Origin: an uncultured Acidobacteriia bacterium
Lineage (GTDB): Bacteria > Acidobacteriota > Terriglobia > Bryobacterales > Bryobacteraceae
Direction of reading: 5' to 3'
NCBI GenBank assembly: GCA_903925015.1
Contig: CAIYDY010000035.1
Coordinates: forward strand, 1-59,158
DNA length: 59,158 bases
The notes under the pieces are model-generated. The model searched no databases. It was not told where the DNA came from and saw only the letters and a program-made list of their open reading frames with translations. Numbering within the stretch: position 1 is the first letter of the stretch; each line of letters opens with the position of its first letter. Positions 11,661-41,458 of the stretch are shown piece by piece. A program made the position numbers and the translations under genes.

Positions 11661-12824
11661 ATGTCACGGATTCTTCTGTCCATACCCCATATGGGGGAAA
11701 CCGAACAGCGTTACGCCGATGAGGCGTTCTCCACGAACTGGGTTTCCACGGTGGGACCCAATTTGGGGGCCTTCGAAAAAGCGTTCTCCGACCGTATCGG
11801 CCTTCCTGCAGTTTGTCTGTCGAGTGGTACGGCCGCCATTCATCTTGGCCTGATCCTGCTGGGTGTAGGTCCGGGTGACGAGGTCTTCTGTTCCACGCTT
11901 ACGTTCGCCGCGTCGGCCAATCCGATTCGGTATCAAGGTGCAACTCCCGTTTTTATGGACAGCGACAGGGAGTCCTGGAATCTCGACCCGCAGCTGCTCA
12001 GTGATGTTTTGCGGACACGGGCCGCAACGAACCGGCTTCCCAAGGCACTCATTGTGGTGGACCTCTACGGCCAATCGGCGGATATGGACCCTATCTTGGA
12101 AATCTGCGGGAGGTACGGCGTTGCCGTGCTGGAAGACGCCGCGGAGGCGCTCGGCGCAACGTACAAAGGCCGGCCCGCTGGCAGCGCGGCTCCCGTTTCG
12201 GCATACTCCTTCAACGGAAACAAAATTATTACCACGGCAGGTGGCGGAATGCTCACGGCCCAGGATCAGGCGCTTGCGGACCGGGCTAGGTTTCTTGCCA
12301 CTCAGGCTCGCGATCCCGGGATTGCTTATGAACATTCGGTGACCGGTTACAACTACCGCATGAGCAATGTGTTGGCGGGCATCGGGCGGGGGCAGATGGA
12401 GGTCCTGGATCTTCGGGTCCAGCAGCGCAGGGCAATTGCCTTCCGCTACCGCGATGCCTTCGCCGACCTTCCCGGCATCTCCCTCATGCCCCAGGCCCGC
12501 TACGGTCTCCATACGAACTGGCTGAGTTGCTTCCTCGTGGATCCGGCCCAATTCGGTTGCACCCGCGACGGGTTGCTCCGGCACTTGGATTCGCGCGACA
12601 TCGAAGCCCGGCCTGTCTGGAAACCCATGCACCTGCAGGCACTATTCGCCGATTGCCAAGTCTACGGCGGGGACGTCGCCGCCGACCTGTTCCGGAACGG
12701 TCTTTGCCTCCCTAGCTCCAGCAACCTCGGCCTTTTGGACCAGGGCAGGGTGATCGACGCGGTTCGCGAGGCCGCCGGGGCTCCCGTGCTTTCCGAAGGG
12801 ATCGCGGAGGTGGTAGTTGCCTGA
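11661..12824 (+). CDS. PglE/EpsN-like sugar aminotransferase (DegT/DnrJ/EryC1/StrS family)
   Basis: A 387-residue PLP enzyme predicted to transfer an amino group to C4 of UDP-4-keto-6-deoxy-GlcNAc, the second step of bacillosamine synthesis. The start (MSRILLSIPHMGETEQRYAD) and the TNWVSTVGPNLGAFE segment closely follow Bacillus EpsN and Campylobacter PglE. The PLP lysine is K188 in SFNGNKIITTAGGGM, and VLEDAAEALGATYKGRPAGS and NYRMSNVLAGIG are further family motifs. I chose the ATG at 11661 because the 22 upstream in-frame codons do not resemble the family. It is the first gene of the polysaccharide locus, and the next gene is the matching PglF-like dehydratase. The exact substrate is inferred from homology and context. 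Confidence 0.88.
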   Translation: MSRILLSIPHMGETEQRYADEAFSTNWVSTVGPNLGAFEKAFSDRIGLPAVCLSSGTAAIHLGLILLGVGPGDEVFCSTLTFAASANPIRYQGATPVFMDSDRESWNLDPQLLSDVLRTRAATNRLPKALIVVDLYGQSADMDPILEICGRYGVAVLEDAAEALGATYKGRPAGSAAPVSAYSFNGNKIITTAGGGMLTAQDQALADRARFLATQARDPGIAYEHSVTGYNYRMSNVLAGIGRGQMEVLDLRVQQRRAIAFRYRDAFADLPGISLMPQARYGLHTNWLSCFLVDPAQFGCTRDGLLRHLDSRDIEARPVWKPMHLQALFADCQVYGGDVAADLFRNGLCLPSSSNLGLLDQGRVIDAVREAAGAPVLSEGIAEVVVA

Positions 12825-12867
12825 TTCTGCCCGACAGGCGCGCCGGCCCGTGCAGGGGAGTGCTCCG

Positions 12868-16671
<3,804 letters not shown>

Positions 16672-18757: not shown

Positions 18758-20290
18758 TTGCCAGCCCAGCCCAACCGCATGAAGCGTGTGCTCACGGGGA
18801 TTACCGCCGTGTGGGGAGGGCAACTTATCTCAATGGCGGAGGCTTTCGCCATTGTCCCAATCTATTTGGCCTACTGGTCCGCCGGACGTTACGGGGAATG
18901 GTTGGCCCTTTCGGCTTTGGTTGCCTACCTTGGCACCTTGGATTTCGGCATGAACATGGCTGGGGGAAATAAGCTCACCCAGCTTTACGCCAAGGGCGAT
19001 CTTGCTGAGTACGACCGTTACCAGCGCGCAGCCCTCTTTTTTTATATGGGTATCGCCGTCGTCGGCACAGCAGTGCTGGGCTTGCTGGCCGTGTTCTTAC
19101 CCATCTCGCAGCTCTTGGGTTTCCACGACACAACTCCGCGTGAAGCGGGACTGGTGACCTTCTTGCTCGGTTCTCAAGTGCTCTGGTCGCTGCCCGGCGG
19201 TCTGATCATGGGGATTTACAGGACGACCGGCGATTTGGCGACTTCGCAGTGGGTTCGCAACTCCACTAGCATTATCGGCATCGCGGCTAGTGCGGCCTGC
19301 CTGCTTTTTGGCGGGGGGATGGCAACGATGGCCACAGTTCAGTTGACCTGCCTTGCAATTGGGGTGACCGGCGTCCTGATCGATGTTCACCGTCGGTTTC
19401 CGGAATTGATGCCCAGCCTTTGGGGGGCCGACATGGTTTTAGTGCGGGAACTCGTGCGGCCAAGCGCCCTGTTCGGCATGATCATTTTGTCCGAGGCCGT
19501 GCGCCTGCAAGGCACGGTGCTCCTGATTTCCTCGTTGCTGGGTGGCCCGGCGGTAGCGCTTTTTGTCAGCTCCCGGACCCTGTGCAACGCTGTCCGCCAG
19601 TTGGCCGGCAATCTCCAATCCGCGTTCTGGCCTCATATTACGGCCTTGGATGCCCAAAAGCGTGAATCCACCATGCGGGACTTCCACAGGCTGTGGGTTC
19701 TGGGCAGTATCACATCCTGCGTTTGTGTTGCCGCCGCAATTTGGTTCGAGGGTACGGATGTGATCCGGGTGTGGACCCACGGAAAGTTGGTTGGTGACTC
19801 AAATTTGTTGCGTCTGCTTCTCTTGCAACTCGTCCTCCAATCCCCATGGCAGGCCAGTAGCTTGATCACTGCTGCATCGAGCAAGCACGACCGGTTGTCC
19901 TATTCGTATTTGGCTTCCAGCGCTACGGCCTTGCTGATCGCCGCGCTCACCTACTCCCGACTCGGGTTGATCGCCATTCCGGTCGGATCAATTTCTGCGG
20001 AGGCCATCTTCTGCTATCATTTCGTCACAGTCGATACCTGCAAGCGGATCGCCGAACAGTATTGGCCATTTGCGGCCCGGCAATGGTCGTTTCTGGGCTT
20101 GGTTTGGGGATTGGCGCTCTTGGCCGCATGGGGCATGCACATCGTCGCATTTGGTCCGTCGCCTTTCCGTTGGGCGGAGGTGGGGATCGCCTCGTCGACG
20201 GCAGCCGTTGCTGTCTTCTGGATCGTCGGACTAGGCGCTTCTGAGCGCAACATGATCAAAGGTTTGGCCGGAGTCGTCCGGGCTCGTTGA
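18758..20290 (+). CDS. Wzx-like polysaccharide flippase
   Basis: A 510-residue integral membrane protein with about 12-14 hydrophobic helices spread over its whole length, including LISMAEAFAIVPIYLAYWSAG near the start and several at the C-terminus. The helix layout fits the MOP superfamily of lipid-linked repeat-unit flippases. I use the TTG at 18758 because GGGGGTG lies at good spacing before it and it directly abuts the upstream stop; the ATG at 18779 lacks a ribosome site and would remove only seven residues. It is the only flippase candidate in the locus and would move the undecaprenyl-linked repeat unit to the periplasmic face. Confidence 0.82.
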   Translation: MPAQPNRMKRVLTGITAVWGGQLISMAEAFAIVPIYLAYWSAGRYGEWLALSALVAYLGTLDFGMNMAGGNKLTQLYAKGDLAEYDRYQRAALFFYMGIAVVGTAVLGLLAVFLPISQLLGFHDTTPREAGLVTFLLGSQVLWSLPGGLIMGIYRTTGDLATSQWVRNSTSIIGIAASAACLLFGGGMATMATVQLTCLAIGVTGVLIDVHRRFPELMPSLWGADMVLVRELVRPSALFGMIILSEAVRLQGTVLLISSLLGGPAVALFVSSRTLCNAVRQLAGNLQSAFWPHITALDAQKRESTMRDFHRLWVLGSITSCVCVAAAIWFEGTDVIRVWTHGKLVGDSNLLRLLLLQLVLQSPWQASSLITAASSKHDRLSYSYLASSATALLIAALTYSRLGLIAIPVGSISAEAIFCYHFVTVDTCKRIAEQYWPFAARQWSFLGLVWGLALLAAWGMHIVAFGPSPFRWAEVGIASSTAAVAVFWIVGLGASERNMIKGLAGVVRAR

Positions 20291-24651: not shown

Positions 24652-26193
24652 ATGCAAACTGGTTCCAATTCAGCTACCGGTCTGGTGGTGTCGTCGGTCA
24701 TCGGGGCCCTGACGGTCGCGGTATTTTACACGACCAAGGAGGCGGTCGGCCTGCCGATCGCCAATGCCGCAATTGCTCTGGCCGTGTTTGTGCAAGGCCT
24801 TTTCGTTCTTCGTTTTGCGTGGAATCTGGAACTCGGCGGACGTCTGGCTATTCCGTTCGCTACCACCTTCCTGGGCATTCAGCATATCGCGTTTGGCTTG
24901 GGAGGCTTGTTCGTAACGTTTTTCAACGAGGGCTTCGACTATGAGAATGCCCAGGGTTTGTTCGACTGGGCACCAGCCACCACGCGCTGCCTGATTCTCC
25001 ACGGTCTCTCCATGAATGTCAGTCTTCTGGGCATTTGGTTGGCGTCCGCCCGTCTACGTGGGAATTCCGGACATCAGGGCGGGAGTTGGCGCACCGGAAT
25101 CACATGGGACTTTGTTGGGCCGCTTTGCATGGTGACCTTGGCGATGCACGGTCCCTGCTGGGTCCTGCCGGGATTGATAACCATGCCCGATCCAGTTCAA
25201 TATGTTGTCCAGTCGTTTGCTCCCTGTACCTTGGGTTCCTATTTGCTTTGGGGGTTGTCGTGGACCGATTGCCGCTCCAAGAACGTTTTCATCGCCTATA
25301 ACATCGCATTCGTGGTGCTGATGATGATTGAAGGTTCTCGTGGCATTTTCATGTACCCGATCCTGATGTTTTCCATTGGCTATCTGATCTCGGCGCCGCC
25401 GGGTTTCTTTCGCCTAAGCCCCGTTTTGAAATGGATGCCTCTGATTCTGCTTGTTTTTTGGGCCTTTCTTAAGACGGATGATCTCCGTACGCGTTTCGCC
25501 CGGGGGGCACCCACTGATTTTGCCGATGCCATGGAACGGCTGGACTTCATTTTTGGAAGTTCCGCGGACGACAGCGGCGCCGACTCCGGCCGAGGTGATG
25601 GCAGCGGGAGAGAGATGAACGGGATGTTTCGCATTGGCTCTCGGTTGTTCGAACTGTCGGCGGCGGATGTGACAGCCCGTACTCCTGAGGAATTCCCTTT
25701 CTGGGGCTGGACGGACGAGGATACCTCCATTCTGCTGACTGGCTTCGTCCCCCTGAAGCTGAACCCGAATGCCACAGCCAACACCAGCGGTACCGCCGGT
25801 GTGCTCTTTCTCCAGACCTATGGCTGGACACAGGTGGATCCAACGCAGGGAAATTCGATGCCCGCCACCGTCGTCGCCGATTCTTGGCGCCGCTTTGGCT
25901 GGCTGGGCGTTGTTCTGACCTACGTCATTTTGGCGTGGGTTTTCACCAAACTCAGCCTGTTGGGGGAGTTCACTGTCGGAGACGATTTCAAAGCCACATT
26001 CTTTACAGCCTTTACCTGTACCGCATTTCAATACACGACGGACATGACGACATTGGTTTCGTCAACACCGCGGAGAGTGGCGGTCACCGCCGCGTTTGCC
26101 CTGCTCGTTCAGTTCCTCGCTTCATTCCAGTCCCGCCGGAAACGCGCTTCGGCGAGACGGGTCTCCTGGCAAGCGGCCGGCTTGGTCAGATGA
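24652..26193 (+). CDS. multi-spanning membrane protein, candidate Wzy polymerase
   Basis: A 513-residue protein with about 10-12 hydrophobic helices and a large hydrophilic loop at about 285-390 containing acidic and Gly/Ser-rich sequence (DDSGADSGRGDGSGREMNG). Many helices plus one long periplasmic loop is the usual outline of O-antigen/exopolysaccharide polymerases, whose sequences are poorly conserved. The segment MMIEGSRGIFMYPILMFSIG near 225, with an Arg beside a helix, is compatible with this. AGGA lies just before the ATG at 24652. It is the last gene of the first plus-strand run and is followed at once by a perfect hairpin. The assignment rests on topology and position; no other polymerase candidate is present. 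Confidence 0.68.
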   Translation: MQTGSNSATGLVVSSVIGALTVAVFYTTKEAVGLPIANAAIALAVFVQGLFVLRFAWNLELGGRLAIPFATTFLGIQHIAFGLGGLFVTFFNEGFDYENAQGLFDWAPATTRCLILHGLSMNVSLLGIWLASARLRGNSGHQGGSWRTGITWDFVGPLCMVTLAMHGPCWVLPGLITMPDPVQYVVQSFAPCTLGSYLLWGLSWTDCRSKNVFIAYNIAFVVLMMIEGSRGIFMYPILMFSIGYLISAPPGFFRLSPVLKWMPLILLVFWAFLKTDDLRTRFARGAPTDFADAMERLDFIFGSSADDSGADSGRGDGSGREMNGMFRIGSRLFELSAADVTARTPEEFPFWGWTDEDTSILLTGFVPLKLNPNATANTSGTAGVLFLQTYGWTQVDPTQGNSMPATVVADSWRRFGWLGVVLTYVILAWVFTKLSLLGEFTVGDDFKATFFTAFTCTAFQYTTDMTTLVSSTPRRVAVTAAFALLVQFLASFQSRRKRASARRVSWQAAGLVR

Positions 26194-26299: not shown

Positions 26300-26700
26300 A
26301 TATGCGGCATAGCAGGCATCTTTACCTACGCTGGTGAAGCCAACCCCGGCATTTCGCGCAAAGTCACCCTTATCCGCGACCATATGGCCACCCGAGGGCC
26401 CGATGGTGCTGGTCTCTGGACCTCCTCGGATGCGCGTGTGACCTTTGGACACCGCCGGCTCGCTATCATCGACCTCCGTGAGGAAGGTGCCCAGCCCATG
26501 GCCAACCGCTTCGGCGGCCTAACCATCGTCTTCAACGGCGAGATTTACAACTACCTCGAACTGAAATCCGAGCTCACTCGAAGGGCTACGTCTTTCAATC
26601 CGAAAGCGATACCGATGTGCTCTTGGCATGGGTGCCGAAGATCTGAATCAACCGCTTTGCGGGCACCGCCGCACCCATTTCGCCTTATGGGCAAGGCATT
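26300..26700 (+). pseudogene. decayed N-terminal part of an asparagine synthase (AsnB-like)
   Basis: Reading from ATA at 26300 gives ICGIAGIFTYAGEANPGISR, the glutamine-amidotransferase start of AsnB with the initiator ATG changed to ATA. The match goes on through HMATRGPDGAGLW, VTFGHRRLAIIDLREEGAQP and VFNGEIYNYLELKSELT. Near 26580 the frame shifts; KGYVFQSESDTDVLLAW continues in another frame, then a stop and further shifts occur (GAEDLN, NRFAGTAA, HFALW in mixed frames). Similarity ends at about 26700, where the IS21 remnant begins. The synthetase domain is absent. It is a diverged relative of the AsnB part of the intact fusion gene at 34808, not a recent copy. The end is approximate. Confidence 0.8.
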
Positions 26701-31446: not shown

Positions 31447-32598
31447 ATGCCTCTTCCCCAAATCCCACTTCTAAATGTCCGAGCCCAGACGGCGTCCATC
31501 CGGGCCGAAATCGACCAAGCCATCGCCCGTGTTCTCGACCATGGCCAATTCATCCTGGGCCCCGAGGTCCGTCAGCTGGAGGAACGCATCGCTGAATACT
31601 GTGGCACAAAGTTCGCCATCGCATGCGCCTCGGGAACGGATGCGATCCTGCTGCCCCTGATGGCACTCAACATCGGGCCCGGCGACCGGGTAGTGGTGCC
31701 GCCATTCACATTTTTCGCCACAGCCGGCTGCGTCTCCAGGCTTGGCGCCACCCCGGTCTTCGTGGATATCGAATACGGGACCTTCAACTTGGATCCAGTT
31801 TTACTTGGCCGCTACCTCGAATCGCTCCCACCGGCAGATTTGGCGACGGTCAAGGCGATCATCCCAGTCCATCTTTTCGGCCAGTGCGCCGACATGCCCG
31901 CGATCAACGAAATCGCTGGCCGGTTCAGTATCCCTGTGATCGAGGATGCTGCCCAGGCAATTGGGTCTGAATTTTCCGGGGCGCGCGCCGGCTCTATGGG
32001 TTGGTGCGGCACCCTCAGCTTCTTCCCCTCGAAGAATTTGGGCGGAATCGGCGACGGGGGGATGGTCACCACGAATGACCCCTCGCTTGACGCCCGTTTG
32101 CGCCTTCTGCGGGTCCATGGGAGCGGAGCAACCTATTTCCACGACGAGGTTGGAACCAACTCCCGGCTCGACACGCTCCAAGCTGCCGTGCTGCTGGCGA
32201 AATTGCCGCATCTGGAAGGATGGGCGGTCCGTCGTCAGGAAAACGCCGCAGCATACCGGGATGCCTTCAGCCGTCTCCTACCGGAAGGTGCCCTCACCGC
32301 GCCCATCGCCTTGCCCGACGCCACCCACGTTTACAACCAATTCACCATCCGGGTCAGGCAGCGCGACGAGGTGCGGCGCCGACTCGCAGAGATGAATGTG
32401 GCCAGCGCGGTTTACTACCCACTCCCGCTCCACCAGCAGAAGTGCTTCGAGCCCCTCGGGTACCGCGCAGGAGACTTTCCTGTGACTGAAACAGCCGCAA
32501 ACGAAGTGCTTTCCCTGCCAATCGACCCCGAACTGGGCCCGGACTCCATAGAAACCGTGGTGGAGCGCCTGGCGGTTGTCCTCCAGAGCCTGGCATAA
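31447..32598 (+). CDS. WbpE/WlbC-like sugar aminotransferase (DegT/DnrJ/EryC1/StrS family)
   Basis: A 383-residue PLP enzyme. The PLP lysine is K196 in LSFFPSKNLGGIGDGGMVTT. Other family blocks are DHGQFILGPEVRQLEERIAE, ACASGTDAILLPLMALNI, VIPVHLFGQCADM and VIEDAAQAIGSEFSGARAGS. Overall it resembles enzymes that transaminate the C3-keto group of UDP-amino-uronic acids (WbpE, WlbC) or dTDP-3-keto sugars (FdtB, QdtB). It starts a second plus-strand run that goes on with the fused oxidoreductase and the AsnB-heparinase gene. No partner dehydrogenase or acetyltransferase clearly fixes its substrate, so only amino-sugar formation is supported. Confidence 0.86.
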   Translation: MPLPQIPLLNVRAQTASIRAEIDQAIARVLDHGQFILGPEVRQLEERIAEYCGTKFAIACASGTDAILLPLMALNIGPGDRVVVPPFTFFATAGCVSRLGATPVFVDIEYGTFNLDPVLLGRYLESLPPADLATVKAIIPVHLFGQCADMPAINEIAGRFSIPVIEDAAQAIGSEFSGARAGSMGWCGTLSFFPSKNLGGIGDGGMVTTNDPSLDARLRLLRVHGSGATYFHDEVGTNSRLDTLQAAVLLAKLPHLEGWAVRRQENAAAYRDAFSRLLPEGALTAPIALPDATHVYNQFTIRVRQRDEVRRRLAEMNVASAVYYPLPLHQQKCFEPLGYRAGDFPVTETAANEVLSLPIDPELGPDSIETVVERLAVVLQSLA

Positions 32599-32663: not shown

Positions 32664-34802
32664 ATGAAACAAGTTATCCAAGACGTACGTACCGGCATCA
32701 CCGCCGTCAAGGAAATTCCGGATCCGGTTGTCGGACCCGGACAAGTACTCGTGGCTGAAATTGCCTCCGCGATTTCCGCTGGAACCGAGCGCTACGTGGT
32801 GGATCTTGCCCGAAAAAGCCTGCTAGGGAAGGCCCGGCAACGGCCTGCGGACGTGAAGCGTGTCCTGCAGAAAATGCAGCAGGAAGGCGTCATGGCCACC
32901 CTGACCCAGGTTTCGGCCAAGCTGAACGAGCCGATGCCGCTGGGATATTCGGCAGCAGGGATCGTTCTCGAATGCGGAGCCGGTGTGGAGGAGTTCAAGC
33001 CGGGCGACCGTGTCGCCATCGCCGCCCCCCATGCCGGAGTAGCCGCGGTTGGACGCAATCTGTGCGCCGCGATCCCCGATGGCGTTACGTTCCAGCAGGC
33101 GGCCTATACCTCGATCGCAGCAATCGGCCTTCAAGGAATCCGGTTGGCCCATCTGGGACTCGGCGATTCAGTTCTGGTGATCGGCCTCGGCTTGATCGGC
33201 CAGATGTGCGTCTGCATGCTCAAGGCTCAGGGCTGCCGAGTTTTCGGCACGGACTCCGACCCGGCCCGCTTGGAGCAGGCAAAGTCTCTCGGTGCCGACA
33301 TGGTGGCAACCGGTGCCCCGCTCCAAGCCGTGAAGGATTTCAGCAATTCGTTTGGCGTCGATGCCGTCATTCTGACCGCCGCCACCGACAGCAACGAGCC
33401 CATCGAGTTTGCCGCCGACGCTTGCCGACCCAAGGGCCGCATCGTGCTGGTCGGCGTGGTTGGACTCAACATTCCCCGTGCTCCATTCTTCCTGAAGGAG
33501 CTGGAATTCACCGTTTCCTCGTCGCTTGGCCCCGGCCGATCCGACCCCCAGTACGAGGAGAAAGGCATCGACTACCCCATCGGCCATGCGCGATGGACCG
33601 CCCAGCGCAACATGATGGCGGTTCTCGACCTCATGGCGGCTGGAAAGTTGCCGGTCGAGAAGCTGACGACGCACTCCTATCCGATCGACCGCGCGTCGCA
33701 AGCGTACGATTTGATCTTTGCCCGCACCGAGCCGTTTCTCGGTGTCGTAATCGAATACGGCGATCCCCAACCTCCCCGGCGTGTTGTCCGGCTGGCCACT
33801 GCCAGTGCTCCGGCAAGCTCCGGCAAGTTGGGTGTCAGTATGATCGGTGCCGGTAATTTCGTGCGCTTGGTCATGCTTCCATCGCTCAACAAAATGTCCG
33901 CCATCGAATGGCGCGGTATCTGTACCGCCAAGGGCATCTCCGCCGAGGCTGCCGGGAACCGCTTCGGCTTCCAATTTGCGTCCACGACCATCGACGAAAT
34001 CTGGAAGGATTCAGGCACCAACGCGGTATTCATCGGCACCCGCCACAATCTGCACGCCGAACTGGTCATAGCGGGACTTCGCGCAGGTAAGAACGTCTTC
34101 GTCGAAAAGCCGTTGTGCATCACCGAGGAGCAATTGGCGGAAATCGACGCCTGCGTGGCGGAGTTGGGACCGCGCTGTCCCATTCTGGCCGTTGGCTTCA
34201 ACCGGCGTTTTTCGATCGGCGTGGAAAAGATCAAGTCGTTTACCGGCTCCGTAAGTCCGTTGAATGTTGCCTACCGGTTTACGCCGGGCCCGATTCCCAA
34301 GACCCATTGGACCCAGGATATCGAAGTCGGCGGCGGACGAATCGTCGGCGAGGCATGCCACGCCATTGACGCCTGTGTCGCGCTCACCGGGTCGGTTCCG
34401 GTGAAGGTCTACGCCGAGTCGGTCGCGATGACCGGAGGGCTCGACATGACCGACGACCACGTCGTGATTACGATGCGGCACGCCAACGGGGCTGTCTCCT
34501 CGATCTCCTACCAGGCGGCGGGCGACCGCGGGTTCCCTCCGGAGCGGATTGAAGTGTTTGGCGGCAACCGGACTGCAACCCTCGACAACTGGAAGGAAGG
34601 GCAGTTGTGGTCGGGCGGCAACTGCAAGAAGTTCGACGGTGCCATGGACAAGGGCCACCAGGCAGGTTTCTCCTCTTTCCTCGCAGCCTGCCGCAAAGGC
34701 GGGGCTTGGCCGATTTCCTGGGAGGAACTCAGAGCCGTGACGTGGGCATCCTTGGCGGCTGTTAAGAGTCTACGGACCGGTGCCCCGGTCTCAGCGAGCT
34801 AA
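32664..34802 (+). CDS. bi-domain oxidoreductase: zinc-type alcohol dehydrogenase fused to Gfo/Idh/MocA
   Basis: A 712-residue fusion. Residues about 1-365 form a medium-chain dehydrogenase with a GroES-like start, PLGYSAAGIVLECGAGVEEF near 91, FKPGDRVAIAAPHA near 110, and a Rossmann motif VLVIGLGLIGQMCVCMLKAQ near 170. Residues about 388-712 form a Gfo/Idh/MocA domain with SMIGAGNFVRLVMLPSL near 391, the EKP motif in AGKNVFVEKPLCITEEQL near 480, and GGRIVGEACHAIDACVALTG near 555. This architecture is known in exopolysaccharide loci, often beside heparinase-like genes, as it is here. The reaction is not established; oxidation or epimerisation of a nucleotide-linked or glycan-bound sugar is plausible. 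The stop lies 5 nt before the AsnB-heparinase start. Confidence 0.88.
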   Translation: MKQVIQDVRTGITAVKEIPDPVVGPGQVLVAEIASAISAGTERYVVDLARKSLLGKARQRPADVKRVLQKMQQEGVMATLTQVSAKLNEPMPLGYSAAGIVLECGAGVEEFKPGDRVAIAAPHAGVAAVGRNLCAAIPDGVTFQQAAYTSIAAIGLQGIRLAHLGLGDSVLVIGLGLIGQMCVCMLKAQGCRVFGTDSDPARLEQAKSLGADMVATGAPLQAVKDFSNSFGVDAVILTAATDSNEPIEFAADACRPKGRIVLVGVVGLNIPRAPFFLKELEFTVSSSLGPGRSDPQYEEKGIDYPIGHARWTAQRNMMAVLDLMAAGKLPVEKLTTHSYPIDRASQAYDLIFARTEPFLGVVIEYGDPQPPRRVVRLATASAPASSGKLGVSMIGAGNFVRLVMLPSLNKMSAIEWRGICTAKGISAEAAGNRFGFQFASTTIDEIWKDSGTNAVFIGTRHNLHAELVIAGLRAGKNVFVEKPLCITEEQLAEIDACVAELGPRCPILAVGFNRRFSIGVEKIKSFTGSVSPLNVAYRFTPGPIPKTHWTQDIEVGGGRIVGEACHAIDACVALTGSVPVKVYAESVAMTGGLDMTDDHVVITMRHANGAVSSISYQAAGDRGFPPERIEVFGGNRTATLDNWKEGQLWSGGNCKKFDGAMDKGHQAGFSSFLAACRKGGAWPISWEELRAVTWASLAAVKSLRTGAPVSAS

Positions 34803-34807
34803 CACGA

Positions 34808-37800
34808 ATGTGCGGAATTGCGGGCATCTTCCATTACGCCGATCCAGACTGTCCTGTCGACCGCGGGCTCTTGGAGCGGATGACGCGCAGTCTCGCCCAT
34901 AGGGGCCCCGACGCCGAAGACTTCTACATTAACGGCAACGTCGGATTTGGCCACCGGCGCCTTTCCATCGTCGATCTTTCCCCGACCGGCGCACAGCCGA
35001 TGCCCAACGATGACCGGACCTCCTGGATCACCTACAACGGGGAGTTCTACAACCATCGGGACTTCCGCCCGCGTCTTGCAGCCAAAGGTGCCCGCTTTCG
35101 TGGTCCGTCCGACACGGAAACGCTGTTGCGGCTGATGGATCTGGAGGGCCCCGAGAGCCTTGCCCAGACTTCGGGAATCTTTGCCTTTGCCTTTTGGGAC
35201 CGCAAATCACAGACACTGACTCTTGGCCGCGACCATCTCGGTGTGAAGCAGTTGTACTTTCACGATGACGGTCGCCGCATCATCTTCGCCAGTGAAATCA
35301 AGGCGCTTCTCCATGACCCGACGGTTCCAAGGGAGATCGACCCCGAGGGCGTCAACCAATACATTCATTTCCACGCGCCGCTGTTTGAGCGGACCTTCTT
35401 CCGAGGGATCCACCAGATTCGGGCTGGCCAGTTTCTGCGCGTCCACCGTTCCGGTGTCAACGCAAAGTTCTATTGGTCCCTGACCGATTTCAATAAATCG
35501 TCAAGGCCCGAAAATGAGCAGATTGACGATCTGAAGAACCACCTGACCTTCATCGTTGGCCAACAGCTGATGTCCGATGTGCCGGTGGGCTCGTTCTTCA
35601 GCGGTGGCATCGATTCGAGCGCTGTTGCCGCGCACGCATCCATATCCGGCAAGCCGCCAATGTGTTTCGGCGTTCATTTCACGGATCAAGGTGTAACCGA
35701 TGAGCGGCCCTACCAGGAGGCGGCGGCGAAGGCGCTGGGCCTCGAACTCCATCTCATCACCATGGACGGGGAATCGTTTCCCGACGATTTCAGCCGCTTG
35801 ATGTACCACCAGGACCAACCGGTTCTGGGACCCGCGTTGTTTCCGATGGCAAAAGTGAGCGAACTTGCCGCGCGCCACGTGAAGGTATGTCTCGGAGGCC
35901 AGGCGGCGGACGAGGTTTTTGGTGGATATGCCCGGTATGCACTGGGACGTCCGCTGCAGGTCATCCGGTCGTGGTTTGCCGGGCGCCAGCGTTCGTCCGC
36001 AAGCGGTGACGGCACCCAGCCCCTCAAAGCTCCGGCAAGCGTCGGCGGCAATCTCTCGCGCCAGTTCGCCGAAGGTGGAACTTTGTTCCGGCTTGCCCGG
36101 AATGCGCGCTATCTGGCAAATTGGGAAGCCAGCTATTTCGAGCACTTCGCCAAAGTTCCCGAATCGGATTGGCAACGCCTGTTTGCGGCGCCGGAGTTTT
36201 GCAACCGCGACTACTGCCGCCAGATTTTTAACGAAACGGTCCACCGCTCCCCCGCAAAGGACCCGCTGGACAAGATCATGTTCTGGGACGTCCAGACCTA
36301 CATGACCGGCCTTTTCCAGCAGGATGACCGGATGAGCATGGCGTCCGGATTGGAATCCCGTGTGCCGTTTGCCGATCCCCGGCTGGTGCAGGCGGCGCTC
36401 CAAATCGACGGGGACTTGAAACTAAGGGGTGGCGCATCCAAATGGATCCTGCGCCAAGCTGTGGCCGACATCCTGCCTCCTCTGGTGCTCAACCGGCGCA
36501 AGGTGGGTTTCGATACCCCTGCGAACCGTTGGTTGCAAGGCCCGCACGCCGGATTTGCCAGGGAACTACTCCTTTCCACGCGGGCTCGCCAGCGCGGCCT
36601 CTGGGATTCGGCGGGGCTCGCCGATCTGCTGGATCACTCCAGCTCCGCTTCCTGGTTCGACATGATCTGGAAGGTTCTATCGATCGAGCAGTGGGCGACC
36701 ATCTTTCTTGACGAGGCTCCAGCCCAACTTTCCGATCGGGCTGCCATACAGCTGGTTACGCGCCCCGAAGGTAGGCAACATGTTGCCGCGGTCCCGTTGC
36801 CGGAACCTCCCATGCCCGTTGCCGAGCGCCTATCCCACATCGCAAGGGAATGCCGCGAGTTGGGTGTCAAGGGTACCTTGGCTCGCGGCATGTGGGAACT
36901 CAAGACCCGCAGCGGTATCCTCCGGGTCAAGCCCGCACCCGATCCCGGTCGGCAGTTTCCGGCACCATTCCTTCGGAGCCAGGACCGGCGCTTGCCGTTC
37001 ACGGCTGTCTCCGATGCGGTACCGGCAATTCGCAAGCTGCTCTCGGATTCCGACAGGCAGACCCTCGCCGATTTGGCTTCCGCCGCCACAAAGGGGCAAA
37101 TTCTGTGCTTCAGCCATTGGATGGCCGACTATGGCAACCCCATTGATTGGCATCGCGATCCCACCAATGGCCACCGGTGGGGGGCGGACACCCACTGGTC
37201 CAGCGTTTTGCGGGGTGCTCCCGAAGTCGATGTGAAGTTCGCCTGGGAAGCCGCGCGATTTCCGCATGCTTACCAAATGGCGCGTGCGGCAGCCTTGGAC
37301 CCGGGAATTGCGTCGATTTTGGCTAGTTCTTTCAAGTCCCAGGTTCGGCACTTCATTGCGTCAAATCCACCGGGTCTCGGGGTCCACTGGTTCTCCGGCC
37401 AGGAAGTTGCCTTGCGCGTCTTTTCGTGGCTATTCGGGATCCATGTCTTTTCGTCGATGGAGCTGCTCTCCGCGGACTTCTTAAAGGAGGTCGGCGAGAG
37501 CCTCATTGCCGCTGGAATCCACTTGGCGGACCACATCGAATATGCCCGCGATTCGGTGTACAACAACCATCTTCTGTCGGAAGCGCTCGGCCTCTATATC
37601 ATTGGCCGAATGTCTTCCGGTCCCCAGGCAAAGGCTTGGGCTGCAGAAGGCTTCCGACTCCTCGATCAGCAGGCCAATCAGCAGATTTATCCTGATGGCG
37701 GCTACATCCAGCAGGGCCATAATTACCATCGGGTCGCGCTGCAGCTCTATGTTCTGGCTTGGTCTTTCGCGAAGGCCAATGGCGACGACGTTCCGAAGTC

Positions 37801-38929
37801 ATGGCTTTCTGCGCTGGAGCGTTCCCTGGATTTCCTTCTCGCGCACCAAAACGAGTCCGACGGGGCGCTCCCGAATTATGGAGCCAACGACGGTTCCCTT
37901 CCAATTCTGCTTGCCCAGGCAGAGCTTCCTGATTTCCGGCCGATTCTCCAAACAATTAGCTGCATCGTTCGCCAAGAGCGCGTTTATGGGCTCGGCCCAT
38001 GGGACGAAATGGCGATCTGGTTTGTCGGCCCGCAGATCCTCGACTACCCGCTGAAGCAGCGACCGTCTGTCTCCGTGTCGTTCCAACACACCGGCTATCA
38101 TGTCCTGCGTGGGACCGACCCGACCCACTTCGCCGCCTTTCGCTGCGGCACCATTCTCGACCGGTTCTCGCAGATTGACATGCTCCATTTGGACGTCTGG
38201 TGGCGCGGCCAAAACATGCTGATCGATCCCGGGAGCTATCGTTACAACGGCGCTCCGCTGTGGCACAACCACTTCCTGCGCACCGAGAGTCACAATACTC
38301 TCATGGTGGACGGTCGGGATCAGATGCTCCACTTCCGCCAGTTCAAAACACTGTATTGGACGGAGGCAAAGCTGCTCTGCTTTGAGGCCTCAGTGAACTG
38401 GACACTTGCCGAGGGCGAGCACTACGGCTACAAGCGGAACCGCGACTGTACCCACCGCCGTGCCGTGCTGATGGCGAACGATGGCATCTGGATTGTGGTG
38501 GACACTGTGATTGGCGAAGGTGACCATTCCGCTCGCCTCCATTGGCTGGCCGGTGCTTATCCATACGAATTCGTTCCGTTCGACGCGCGCGTGACCCTGC
38601 AGACTCCGAACGGGCCTTTTTCTGTTTCCATCCTCGATATGGCAGGCCAGCCCTGTGCCGCAATGGATGTCGTCAGTGGGTCCAGCACTCCACCACGGGG
38701 CTGGCAGTCCCGCTTCTATGGCGTGAAATCGCCGTCGCCGTCCATCGCAGGGGTCATGGCCGGCCCCGCGCCGATTACAATGGTCACGGTCTTGTGCGGA
38801 GGAACTCCGGAGATTTCGGTCTCGGGCGGGCAATGGAGCGTCGGAAGCGAGGGCACGCGTGTCGGCTTCCGCATTCAGGATGGCCGTTTTGCCGGTATTG
38901 AAGTCCTCACCGGGGGGATTCCGTCTTGA
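34808..38929 (+). CDS. fusion of glutamine-dependent asparagine synthase (AsnB-like) and heparinase II/III-like module
   Basis: One uninterrupted 1373-residue frame. Residues 1 to about 210 are a class II glutamine amidotransferase, with nucleophile Cys2 in MCGIAGIF, SLAHRGPDAEDFYI, FGHRRLSIVDLSPTGAQPM and YNGEFYNHRDF. Residues about 235-630 are the ATP-binding synthetase domain, with SGGIDS at 265-270, CLGGQAADEVFGGYARYALG near 362 and MFWDVQTYMTGLFQQDDRMS near 487. After a linker (about 640-730), residues about 760-1080 form the alpha toroid of heparinase II/III proteins (SVYNNHLLSEALGLYIIG, YPDGGYIQQGHNYHRVALQL). Residues about 1095-1340 form the beta-sandwich half (QIDMLHLDVWWRGQNMLIDP, HNHFLRTESHNTLMVDGRDQ). 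Cys2 must be N-terminal, so there is no signal peptide and the lyase-like half should be cytoplasmic. It probably amidates a uronic acid in the glycan; the role of the second half is unknown. Confidence 0.9.
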   Translation: MCGIAGIFHYADPDCPVDRGLLERMTRSLAHRGPDAEDFYINGNVGFGHRRLSIVDLSPTGAQPMPNDDRTSWITYNGEFYNHRDFRPRLAAKGARFRGPSDTETLLRLMDLEGPESLAQTSGIFAFAFWDRKSQTLTLGRDHLGVKQLYFHDDGRRIIFASEIKALLHDPTVPREIDPEGVNQYIHFHAPLFERTFFRGIHQIRAGQFLRVHRSGVNAKFYWSLTDFNKSSRPENEQIDDLKNHLTFIVGQQLMSDVPVGSFFSGGIDSSAVAAHASISGKPPMCFGVHFTDQGVTDERPYQEAAAKALGLELHLITMDGESFPDDFSRLMYHQDQPVLGPALFPMAKVSELAARHVKVCLGGQAADEVFGGYARYALGRPLQVIRSWFAGRQRSSASGDGTQPLKAPASVGGNLSRQFAEGGTLFRLARNARYLANWEASYFEHFAKVPESDWQRLFAAPEFCNRDYCRQIFNETVHRSPAKDPLDKIMFWDVQTYMTGLFQQDDRMSMASGLESRVPFADPRLVQAALQIDGDLKLRGGASKWILRQAVADILPPLVLNRRKVGFDTPANRWLQGPHAGFARELLLSTRARQRGLWDSAGLADLLDHSSSASWFDMIWKVLSIEQWATIFLDEAPAQLSDRAAIQLVTRPEGRQHVAAVPLPEPPMPVAERLSHIARECRELGVKGTLARGMWELKTRSGILRVKPAPDPGRQFPAPFLRSQDRRLPFTAVSDAVPAIRKLLSDSDRQTLADLASAATKGQILCFSHWMADYGNPIDWHRDPTNGHRWGADTHWSSVLRGAPEVDVKFAWEAARFPHAYQMARAAALDPGIASILASSFKSQVRHFIASNPPGLGVHWFSGQEVALRVFSWLFGIHVFSSMELLSADFLKEVGESLIAAGIHLADHIEYARDSVYNNHLLSEALGLYIIGRMSSGPQAKAWAAEGFRLLDQQANQQIYPDGGYIQQGHNYHRVALQLYVLAWSFAKANGDDVPKSWLSALERSLDFLLAHQNESDGALPNYGANDGSLPILLAQAELPDFRPILQTISCIVRQERVYGLGPWDEMAIWFVGPQILDYPLKQRPSVSVSFQHTGYHVLRGTDPTHFAAFRCGTILDRFSQIDMLHLDVWWRGQNMLIDPGSYRYNGAPLWHNHFLRTESHNTLMVDGRDQMLHFRQFKTLYWTEAKLLCFEASVNWTLAEGEHYGYKRNRDCTHRRAVLMANDGIWIVVDTVIGEGDHSARLHWLAGAYPYEFVPFDARVTLQTPNGPFSVSILDMAGQPCAAMDVVSGSSTPPRGWQSRFYGVKSPSPSIAGVMAGPAPITMVTVLCGGTPEISVSGGQWSVGSEGTRVGFRIQDGRFAGIEVLTGGIPS

Positions 38930-40179
38930 AAATCCTCGTTGTCCACCAGTACTACCTGATGCCCGGCATGTTCGGCGGCTCGCGCTTCAACGAGATGACC
39001 CGGATGTGGTCCGAGCGTGGCCACCAAGTCACCGTCATCGCCGGGACCGTGGACCACGGCACCGGGCAATCGCCGGAGCGCTACCGGGGCAAGTGGGTGA
39101 CAAAGGAAATGGACGGTCCGGTGACCGTCCTTCGGAGCCACGTCCCGGATACCTACGGCAAGAGCTACGCCGGCCGGATGTGGGCCTTCTTCGGCTTCAC
39201 CTTATCCGCTGCTTCCGCCGCTTTCAAGGCGGAGCGACCGGATGTTGTGGTGGCCACCTCGCCGCCCCTGATTGCCGTCATCCCGGGCTGGGTTGCCGCT
39301 CGGCTGGCGCATCGGGGTGTACCGTGGATCTTCGAAATGCGCGACCTGTGGCCGGAAAGCGCGGTCACAACCGGCGTACTCCGCGCCACGGCCCCGCTGA
39401 CCAGGATCCTTTATGCGCTGGAAAAGATGGCGTGCAGGAGCGCGGACATGGTCAACGTCCTGACCCCTGCGTTCCAAGAGGACATCGAGCGTCGGGGCCT
39501 CGCAACTGCCGACAAGATCTGCTTCGTGCCCAACGGGGCCGATTTGGAAATGTTCGTGCCCGGACCGCGCAACAACTCCATCCGCGCCGAATTCGGCTGG
39601 GGCGATCGTTTCGTCGCCATGTACGCCGGTGCACACAGCCTCGCCAACGCCGTTTCCCAACTTTTGGATACGGCGGAGCTTCTCCGCGACCGTCCCGATA
39701 TCTTGATCGCCTGTGTCGGCGACGGACCCCTGAGGGCATCCCTGGCGGCGGACGCCGAAAAGCGCGGCCTCACCAACATCGTCTTCCACGGCCCCCAGCC
39801 GAAGACCCGCATGCCGGAAATCGTCAATGCCTGCGATCTCGGCTTGGCCGTCCTCCAGAACAACCCGACGTTCCGCACCGTCTACCCCAACAAGGTTTTC
39901 GACTACATGGCCTGCGCGAAACCAGCGCTGCTGGCCATCGACGGCGTAGCCCGAAAGCTAGTCTGCGACGAGGCCAAGGCCGGTATTTTCGCCGAGCCGG
40001 AAAATCCCGCAGCCATCGCGGCCGCCATCCTCGCCATGGCCGACGATCCTGCAAAGTGCGCGGAAATGGGTCGGAGCGGTCGCGCATGGGTAGTAGCCAA
40101 CGCCGGACGCGATGCCTTGGCAGACCGGTACCTGGACATCATGCGGAAGCTAGTCGACCGCAAATCCGCCAAACGCTGA
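38926..40179 (+). CDS. WbuB-like GT4 glycosyltransferase
   Basis: A 417-residue GT-B enzyme. The start MKILVVHQYYLMPGMFGGSR and segments VVVATSPPLIAVIPGWVAAR, WIFEMRDLWPESAVTTGVLR and ICFVPNGADLEMFVPG match the WbuB group, whose studied members transfer N-acetyl-fucosamine-like sugars early in repeat-unit assembly. The donor side has MYAGAHSLANAVSQLLDTAE, VFHGPQPKTRMPEIVNACDL and VYPNKVFDYMACAKPALLAI. The TTG start at 38926 overlaps the upstream stop (TTGA). Two bases after its stop comes the initiating PglC-like transferase, so it may add the second sugar. The donor is inferred from family only. Confidence 0.9.
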   Translation: MKILVVHQYYLMPGMFGGSRFNEMTRMWSERGHQVTVIAGTVDHGTGQSPERYRGKWVTKEMDGPVTVLRSHVPDTYGKSYAGRMWAFFGFTLSAASAAFKAERPDVVVATSPPLIAVIPGWVAARLAHRGVPWIFEMRDLWPESAVTTGVLRATAPLTRILYALEKMACRSADMVNVLTPAFQEDIERRGLATADKICFVPNGADLEMFVPGPRNNSIRAEFGWGDRFVAMYAGAHSLANAVSQLLDTAELLRDRPDILIACVGDGPLRASLAADAEKRGLTNIVFHGPQPKTRMPEIVNACDLGLAVLQNNPTFRTVYPNKVFDYMACAKPALLAIDGVARKLVCDEAKAGIFAEPENPAAIAAAILAMADDPAKCAEMGRSGRAWVVANAGRDALADRYLDIMRKLVDRKSAKR

Positions 40180-40181
40180 CC

Positions 40182-40820
40182 ATGTTCTACCGGAATCTTC
40201 TCAAGCCCGTGATCGACGCGGTTCTGGCTGGAGTCGGCCTTTTGATTCTCTCTCCGGTTCTGCTCGTCCTCGTCTTTATGATCCGGTCCCGGATGGGGAC
40301 GCCCGTGATCTTCCGCCAAGTCCGGGCTGGTCTGAACGGCCAACTATTCGGCTTCCGCAAGTTCCGCAGTATGACGCAGGAACGCGGGCCGGACGGCGAA
40401 CTGCTGCCGGACGAGGTCCGTCTTACGGCTTTCGGCAAGTTCCTGCGCTCCACCAGCTTGGACGAGCTGCCGCAGCTGTTGAACGTGCTTACCGGCGACA
40501 TGAGCCTGGTGGGTCCACGGCCGCTCCTGCCCGAGTACCTGCCGCGATACTCGGCGTTCCAGCGGCGCCGGCATGAGGTTCGGCCGGGAATCACTGGTTG
40601 GGCGCAGGTGAAAGGTCGCAACTCCCTCACATGGGAGGAAAAATTCCAACTCGACGTCTGGTACGTCGATAACCAGAGCCTGTGGCTGGACCTCAAGATT
40701 CTCGTCCTTACCGTGGTTGCAGTCTTCGGTCGGCGCGACATCAGCCGGGCGGGCCATGCCACGGCGCCAGTGTTCATGGGTAGTGGCGCTATTGAAAGCA
40801 GCAACAAGGAATCCTCATGA
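40182..40820 (+). CDS. PglC/WcaJ-type initiating phosphoglycosyl transferase
   Basis: A 212-residue monotopic phosphoglycosyl transferase. A basic start and one re-entrant hydrophobic helix (about 8-34, DAVLAGVGLLILSPVLLVLV) are followed by GTPVIFRQVRAGLNGQLFGF, FRKFRSMT, the catalytic Asp-Glu pair in STSLDELPQLLNVLTGDMSL, the VGPRPLLPEY motif and RPGITGWAQVKGRNSLTWEE. The short length without extra N-terminal helices matches PglC and EpsL rather than full-length WcaJ. It is expected to move di-N-acetylbacillosamine-1-phosphate, or a similar amino sugar, to undecaprenyl phosphate. The ATG at 40182 is two nt after the WbuB-like stop, and its stop overlaps the PglD-like start (ATGA). Confidence 0.93.
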   Translation: MFYRNLLKPVIDAVLAGVGLLILSPVLLVLVFMIRSRMGTPVIFRQVRAGLNGQLFGFRKFRSMTQERGPDGELLPDEVRLTAFGKFLRSTSLDELPQLLNVLTGDMSLVGPRPLLPEYLPRYSAFQRRRHEVRPGITGWAQVKGRNSLTWEEKFQLDVWYVDNQSLWLDLKILVLTVVAVFGRRDISRAGHATAPVFMGSGAIESSNKESS

Positions 40821-41458
40821 AGAAATGTTTGATCGTCGGTGCCGGGGGACTGGGCCGCGAAGTTTTGAGCTGGGCGCTCCACGCCGTCGGGGCCGATTGG
40901 CGGGTCGAGGGATTTCTCGACGGCAATCCCAAGGCGTTGGAAGGAAAGAACGTGCCCTATCCGGTGCTCGGTGCGCCCGATTCCTGGGTTCCAGCCGAAG
41001 ATGAGGTCTTCCTCGCCGCCATCGGCGATCCGAAGGCCCGTTTGCGCGTCTGTGGCGGATTGTCCGACCGAGGGGCCCGGTTCCTGACTCTGGTCCATCC
41101 CACCGCCGTGCTCGGGATGAACGTGGATCTGGGCGAGGGCACCATCGTCGCCCCCATGGCTGTGATTACCGCGAATTCCAAAATCGAGCGTTTTGTGCTG
41201 GTGAACGTGGGTGTATGCATTGGCCACGATACCTTCATCGGCGAAGGCACCACTGTTAGCCCCCACGCCGATATTTTGGGGAACGCCTCCATCGGGCGGG
41301 CGTGCTACCTCGGGAGCCACGCCTGTATTCTGCCTTCCATGCAGGTGGGCGACAACGCCGTCGTTGGTGCGGGCTCCGCTGTTCTGCGCGCCGTCGCCCC
41401 GTCGACAACGGTACTCGGAGTTCCCGCGCAGGTGTTGATCCCCCGGAAGCAGGTCTGA
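40817..41458 (+). CDS. PglD/NeuD-like sugar O/N-acetyltransferase
   Basis: A 213-residue protein. Its N-terminal Rossmann-like sugar-binding domain starts KKCLIVGAGGLGREVLSWAL. A left-handed beta helix with hexapeptide repeats follows from about 95, with the catalytic His in NVGVCIGHDTFIGEGTTVSP and the end AVAPSTTVLGVPAQVLI. PglD acetylates the C4 amine of UDP-4-amino-4,6-dideoxy-GlcNAc; the needed precursor enzymes are the first two genes of the locus, about 28 kb away. It is coupled to the PglC-like gene by a four-base overlap, the pairing expected for making and loading bacillosamine. O-acetylation of another sugar cannot be excluded. Confidence 0.88.
   Translation: MKKCLIVGAGGLGREVLSWALHAVGADWRVEGFLDGNPKALEGKNVPYPVLGAPDSWVPAEDEVFLAAIGDPKARLRVCGGLSDRGARFLTLVHPTAVLGMNVDLGEGTIVAPMAVITANSKIERFVLVNVGVCIGHDTFIGEGTTVSPHADILGNASIGRACYLGSHACILPSMQVGDNAVVGAGSAVLRAVAPSTTVLGVPAQVLIPRKQV

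Follow-up and report, generated by a model that had tools for sequence, protein, structure and literature searches.

The window analysed here is a stretch of 59,158 nucleotides, read as the forward strand of contig CAIYDY010000035.1 (assembly GCA_903925015.1) from an uncultured Acidobacteriia bacterium of the family Bryobacteraceae. It carries, in a polysaccharide repeat-unit assembly locus, a gene in which an asparagine synthase (AsnB) and a heparinase-family module form one polypeptide that is conserved across species. The parts of this gene and the active-site-like residues of its second half are given below; L and G numbers are our handles for loci and genomes, respectively.

34808–38929, + strand: AsnB–heparinase fusion gene, 1373 amino acids (aa), one open frame; five further full-length fusions
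34808–36715, + strand: AsnB half, residues 1–636, with Cys2, SGGIDS PP-loop and Gln365 (Glu in E. coli AsnB)
36716–36829, + strand: linker, residues 637–674, of low conservation in the alignments; the start of the standalone relative L079 matches about residue 672
36830–38926, + strand: heparinase II/III-like half, residues 675–1373, by PF16889, PF07940 and alignment to heparinase III (5JMD and 4MMH)
37565–37570, + strand: Asn920-His921, Asn920 aligned with heparinase III Asn240; invariant in 12 of 12 rows
37724–37726, + strand: Tyr973, aligned with heparinase III Tyr294; invariant in 12 of 12 rows
38165–38167, + strand: Phe1120 in DRFSQIDMLHLD, where heparinase III has His424 (lost here), from alignments to heparinase III and relatives
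38291–38293, + strand: His1162 of the HNT motif, kept in alignments of relatives

The frame runs from the ATG through the stop with zero internal stop codons. Four Pfam domains were recognised above their cut-offs, namely GATase_7 (residues 49–168), Asn_synthase (244–630), Hepar_II_III_N (773–1012) and Hepar_II_III_C (1086–1249), with 60.9 bits for PF16889 and 100.8 bits for PF07940 in the heparinase half. The AsnB half matched TIGR01536 (NCBIfam) with 432.6 bits against a cut-off of 267.1. An initial annotation of this DNA had described such a frame, with a Cys2 amidotransferase and an SGGIDS synthetase site in its AsnB part. The frame, its domains and its recurrence in other genomes bear this out, as do both motifs. 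The full toroid plus β-sandwich described in the same annotation is likewise suggested by the domain matches and the heparinase III alignment; a single-sequence structure prediction had a low mean predicted local distance difference test score (pLDDT), 35.6, and does not bear on it.

L079, a standalone relative of 681 aa (45% identity by BLAST), has no AsnB, and its first residue matches about residue 672 of the fusion. The fusion therefore consists of two whole proteins joined via a poorly conserved linker at about 637–674. A candidate internal start near this linker, Met669, has a counterpart in L047 and none in L048, L050, L051 and L052. Because it is not conserved, a single polypeptide is the simplest reading, and separate translation of the second half is disfavoured.

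The nucleophile Cys2 follows from an MCG start in all six full-length fusions. These also share Gln365 (window 35900–35902); the E. coli enzyme has Glu348 here, following a conserved Gly. This position is Glu or Asp in seven of seven standalone AsnB proteins caught by a motif scan. One Streptomyces AsnB has Met, so Glu is not universal here. At E 1e-150 none of 296 other genomes yielded a close standalone relative of the AsnB half (two to four candidates scored per genome, so that misses are possible), and its nearest unfused source was not found. What remains of a second AsnB lies in the window at 26300–26599. Its N-terminal amidotransferase part is 40% identical to the fusion, and no synthetase part was recognised downstream in the three forward frames. 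At L053 (11651–15079), an open frame of 1142 aa matches AsnB at residues 515–1131 only, its N-terminal half being perhaps a spurious extension.

A search of the family with the heparinase half (E 1e-30, at most four candidates scored per genome) returned full-length fusions in 6 of 237 genomes, our own included, and a truncated copy in one. Four of the full fusions belong to the same genus (G000, G007, G015, G018) and two to other genera of the family (G156, G077). The five besides the window have open frames of 1369 (G015), 1377 (G018), 1369 (G007), 1363 (G156) and 1367 (G077) codons. Identity to the window is 61–82% in the AsnB half and 42–66% in the linker plus heparinase half. The G077 assembly has four contigs only, and its fusion is 44% identical to the window over the heparinase half. 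The truncated copy in G013 (L049) is 94% identical over 403 residues and ends at a contig edge after 404 aa; it was also the sole match in a search of the genome contig collection. Within the genus, some match to the heparinase half occurred in 13 of 19 genomes, again counting our own. Since six assemblies from a single acidobacterial family carry the fusion at full length, with identities of 42–82% by half, the fusion is not an assembly or frameshift artefact, and an assembly join or frameshift is ruled out. Further AsnB fusions were found neither in the class (399 genomes) nor in the phylum (396 genomes) samples at E 1e-90, with misses possible because the whole-genome profile searches scored two to four candidates per genome. 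No relatives came from viral contigs, and no description of an AsnB–heparinase fusion was found in the open-licence papers searched.

A different fusion was seen in another acidobacterial family (L078, 9274–13293, G475, one assembly), where a frame of 1339 aa joins the heparinase module to a WbuB-like family 4 glycosyltransferase (GT4) and then an initiating sugar transferase. A 29-row tree, from which the truncated copy L049 was excluded and in which the long rows S_L105 and N_L104 were flagged, has L079 nested weakly within the fused rows. The approximately unbiased (AU) test gave p 0.088 for the fused rows held together, so that a single origin of the fusion would be neither established nor rejected.

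Heparinase III (4MMH) uses Asn240, Tyr294 and His424 as catalytic residues (PMC12088678, Table 4), and Ala mutants of the equivalent triad in lyases of polysaccharide lyase family 35 (PL35) are reported to lose all activity towards chondroitin sulfate C (CS-C) (PMC12088678). Triad positions were counted along the alignment, the published numbering differing from that of the chain by a constant 24. Two-thirds of the triad is retained in the fusion, with Asn920 and Tyr973 present and the His replaced by Phe1120. Among the 16 clade members read at this position, Phe occurs in the seven fused rows and L079, and Pro in L078, L080–L084, L104 and L109. Across 12 rows of this His-less clade, with identities to the window as low as 27%, there is no variation at residues 920, 921, 973, 1119, 1124, 1129, 1140, 1146, 1162 and 1163. 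Both histidines of an HxH motif are present in all 14 of the other acidobacterial rows, with Asp following in 12 (not in L058 and L062), and these histidines are also kept in proteins from an E. coli plasmid, Parabacteroides, Streptomyces KN37 and Shinella. His-less and HxH classes are split with 100/100 support in the tree. Judged from these alignments, the site in the heparinase half is not a canonical lyase site. The initial annotation had regarded an inert tail as the outcome if the key Tyr and His of the lyase fold were lost; the Tyr is kept, and Phe stands at the place of His424. Because active-site-like residues are invariant in 12 rows, the half does not look like a decayed tail, and this explanation is disfavoured.

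The genes around the fusion are those of a polysaccharide locus:

12817–14757, + strand: Polysacc_synt_2 nucleotide-sugar dehydratase-like protein
31447–32598, + strand: DegT-family sugar aminotransferase
32664–34802, + strand: bi-domain oxidoreductase, 712 aa, medium-chain dehydrogenase/reductase (MDR) alcohol dehydrogenase plus Gfo/Idh/MocA, of ZbdP-like architecture; 5 bp upstream of the fusion
38926–40179, + strand: WbuB-like GT4 glycosyltransferase; 4 bp overlap with the fusion stop
40182–40820, + strand: initiating bacterial sugar transferase (PF02397)
40817–41458, + strand: PglD-like hexapeptide acetyltransferase

The bi-domain oxidoreductase adjoins the fusion in four of the six full-length loci (window, L047, L048, L050). 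The open reading frames scanned in the window include no recognised flippase or polymerase family, and two of them (18758–20290 and 24652–26193) match no Pfam family. A MurJ-type flippase occurs in L051 and L052; in L052 it is accompanied by one Wzy_C, one Wzz/kinase-like and one export protein, and this locus is therefore of the Wzx/Wzy kind. The WbuB-like GT4 was detected (tblastn, E 1e-15) in 14 of the 16 fetched loci of the His-less clade, the exceptions being L080 and L081, versus none of the 14 fetched acidobacterial loci with HxH histidines. Among plasmid loci of the HxH class it is present in L107, the source of the query, and L111, and absent from L105 and L110; L108 was within the database searched, its motif class not having been read. 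The 14 acidobacterial HxH loci are those fetched with flanks out of 36 unfused places of the family search, picked by score and by the length of the contig. With the window AsnB as blastp query, an AsnB gene was found within the fetched stretch in 9 of them, and a tblastn search with an AsnB from Streptomyces gave 10; in four (L054, L055, L056, L058) AsnB and an unfused heparinase gene are immediate neighbours on one strand.

Similar associations occur outside the Acidobacteriota. A search of plasmid records with the oxidoreductase at E 1e-60 gave seven records. A heparinase-like gene adjoins the oxidoreductase in five (Sphingobium AntQ-1, Parabacteroides, Streptomyces KN37, NBC_01450 and NBC_01483) and asnB in four, namely the related Streptomyces KN37, NBC_01450 and NBC_01483, which have all three genes, and HUAS 15-9. 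The order in KN37 is asnB, bi-domain oxidoreductase, alginate-lyase-family gene, and tblastn found an equal order in NBC_01450 and NBC_01483. No heparinase was seen in the HUAS 15-9 stretch, and neither heparinase nor asnB in that of Thalassospira. Genes wecB and wecC, for the formation of N-acetylmannosaminuronic acid (ManNAcA), lie near the oxidoreductase in Sphingobium AntQ-1, Parabacteroides and HUAS 15-9 and, in Sphingobium CFD-2 and the E. coli plasmid, near heparinase genes without an annotated oxidoreductase next to them. Three of these stretches may be described individually. L110 (2684–8803) is the Streptomyces plasmid stretch with asnB, bi-domain oxidoreductase and alginate-lyase-family gene. 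L112 (3694–9222), also from a Streptomyces plasmid, has wecC, the oxidoreductase and asnB and no lyase-like gene. L107 (93–9688), from an E. coli IncC plasmid, holds an O-antigen-like set of wecB-like, wecC-like and three unnamed genes, a heparinase gene (GHAHAD), wbuB and galF.

AsnB occupies the N-terminus of the fusion, which by construction has no export signal (as read from the sequence, with no signal-peptide program); the initial annotation was right on this point. It also considered a heparinase-like fold without such a signal unusual, which is not supported for loci of this kind. Standalone relatives in similar loci have N-termini with no obvious signal peptide when read by eye. In Pseudomonas aeruginosa PA14, the heparinase II/III protein HepP lies directly downstream of ZbdP, an MDR plus Gfo/Idh/MocA protein (PA14_23420–23430; PMC5732420). 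PSORTb detected no export signal in HepP, and the authors leave its location open in their account (PMC5732420). Given PA14 zbdP–hepP and the neighbouring asnB, oxidoreductase and heparinase-like genes of Streptomyces, a signal-less lyase-like fold in such loci is not new.

What the heparinase half does was considered in the light of human dermatan sulfate epimerase 1 (DS-epi1). This enzyme has a heparinase-like fold with a proposed triad of His205, Tyr261 and Tyr473, its His450 being only water-bridged to the carboxylate, and its authors remark that small active-site changes may convert a lyase into an epimerase (PMC8006597). Candidates for the triad in the fusion are His921 and Tyr973, with Tyr1144 and Tyr1146 both near the third place by sequence alone. 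By this analogy, C5 epimerisation would be more likely than cleavage for the heparinase half.

We favour, tentatively and with doubts that slightly outweigh our confidence, a bifunctional cytoplasmic enzyme of repeat-unit assembly in which C5 epimerisation of a sugar acid by the heparinase half is followed by amidation by AsnB. The substrate would be a sugar acid within an intermediate linked to undecaprenyl (or to a nucleotide). A Tyr/His pair may exchange the C5 proton and so bring about epimerisation, not cleavage, as proposed for DS-epi1, whereupon the AsnB half would amidate the carboxylate. Amidation should, on chemical grounds, lower the acidity at C5 and therefore lock the epimerised product, and the order of the two steps is suggested by the same kind of reasoning. 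The adjoining oxidoreductase may act on the same sugar via a keto intermediate. In support of this proposal, the fusion is single and conserved, and the AsnB, oxidoreductase and heparinase activities recur unfused elsewhere. The WbuB-like GT4 is present in most fetched loci of the His-less clade and in none of the acidobacterial HxH loci, L078 is a triple fusion, and the lyase His is lost but Asn, His, Tyr and the HNT His are kept across 12 sequences. Of the coupled amidation and processing of a uronic acid that the initial annotation had suggested, the coupling fits the recurrent AsnB, heparinase and oxidoreductase neighbourhoods; processing must reckon with the lost lyase His, and the uronic acid is conjectural.

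Several observations weigh against the proposed epimerase–amidase. Two UDP-sugar dehydrogenases (PF00984) were found in the whole genome, both on other contigs and none in the window. Homologs of wecC were found neither in the window nor in the stretches fetched for the six other fusion loci nor in those of the three Streptomyces triplets, and wecB homologs occur in two of seven fusion loci only (L048, L050). In L051 and L052 the fetched stretches lack the oxidoreductase. Both in Parabacteroides and in Streptomyces KN37 (L110) the heparinase-like partner keeps HxHxD, and His loss is therefore not characteristic of this gene neighbourhood as a whole. The counterpart of Tyr473 is ambiguous between Tyr1144, which is Phe in two fusions, and Tyr1146. 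No tested activity was found for any enzyme of the His-less clade, and recombinant PA14 HepP, which is unfused and has a like oxidoreductase for a neighbour, is reported to have cleared heparin plates, which favours lyase chemistry (PMC5732420).

The HepP result also speaks for a true but altered β-elimination lyase that would trim or proofread repeat units in the cytoplasm, with another residue in the role of the His. Asn920 and Tyr973 are kept, and the new invariant set of Arg1119, Asp1124 and Asp1129 beside the lost His could compensate. We consider such a lyase unlikely, however, because the His is one of the three residues whose Ala mutants abolish CS-C activity in PL35 (PMC12088678), because its place is taken by Phe or Pro in 16 of 16 clade members read, and because a lyase within an assembly pathway would destroy its own product. 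Alternatively, and in keeping with the loss of the catalytic His, the heparinase-like half may bind the glycan without catalysis and present a sugar acid on its lipid carrier to AsnB. A presenting module would be expected to be fused directly to its partner enzymes, as seen with AsnB in the window and with a GT4 and a sugar transferase in L078, but the invariance of Asn920, His921, Tyr973, Asp1140 and His1162 in 12 rows is seemingly more than binding needs, and we regard this role as possible if rather improbable.

Finally, two independent activities may have been fused by chance from adjoining genes and remain uncoupled. Where AsnB stands beside an unfused same-strand heparinase gene, as in 4 of 14 standalone loci, loss of one stop codon could fuse them, and the weak nesting of L079 leaves a single origin neither shown nor rejected. 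Yet the fusion has outlasted long divergence, with the heparinase half down to 42% identity, and AsnB and a heparinase-like gene also pair unfused in Streptomyces; we find an accidental and uncoupled fusion distinctly unlikely.

The epimerase–amidase proposal may be carried further, to a reading that is itself unlikely to hold in full. A cross-phylum set of wecB/wecC, bi-domain oxidoreductase, heparinase-fold protein and at times AsnB might make L-sugar acids from D-ManNAcA, maybe on the lipid carrier. The heparinase-fold protein would invert C5, the oxidoreductase C3 via a 3-keto sugar, and AsnB would amidate and so fix the product; the window enzyme would unite two of these steps. As D-manno inverted at C3 and C5 is L-galacto, the product would be N-acetyl-L-galactosaminuronic acid (L-GalNAcA) or its amide. 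Such a product would agree with the L-GalNAcA of the PA14-type (O10) O-antigen.

The fusion may serve as a Rosetta stone, linking AsnB amidation to heparinase-like proteins of polysaccharide loci that are annotated as degradative lyases. If these are epimerases or presenting modules, that recurrent annotation would be wrong, and a concrete candidate for the bacterial making of L-configured, amidated sugar acids would be at hand. The PA14 hepP phenotypes could then be read as O-antigen defects. Both zbdP and hepP are listed under O-antigen biosynthesis (PMC4198096), and hepP loss is described as causing delayed pellicles, less biofilm and less worm killing, while a zbdP mutant still formed biofilm and killed most worms (PMC5732420).

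Among known systems, the AsnB-type amidotransferases of polysaccharide loci (TIGR01536), to which WbpS-type enzymes belong, share the full glutamine-hydrolysing architecture of the fusion, which differs in bearing a second enzyme-family module and in having Gln365 in place of the E. coli Glu in six of six fusions. Among solved structures, heparinase III of family PL12 (5JMD) matches the heparinase half best (profile E 4.1e-35) and has the Asn and Tyr in common with it, whereas the fusion has Phe at the His424 place, no export signal and AsnB attached. DS-epi1 was not among the six sequences listed for the heparinase half at E up to 10. It resembles the fusion in its heparinase-like fold and, on the proposal above, in C5 epimerisation during polysaccharide biosynthesis (PMC8006597), but acts on polymer in the Golgi lumen, and residue equivalence to the fusion is not fixed. 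Compared by description, PA14 zbdP–hepP shows the same arrangement of an oxidoreductase directly upstream of a signal-less heparinase protein (gap of 5 bp in the window), although hepP is a gene of 1653 bp (about 550 aa) whose product is not described there as fused to AsnB. In the plasmid of Streptomyces sp. KN37 the three activities adjoin in a polysaccharide locus, but as three separate genes, and its heparinase-like protein keeps HxHxD. The fusion joins two known neighbours, and it is for the AsnB fusion itself that the papers searched held no report.

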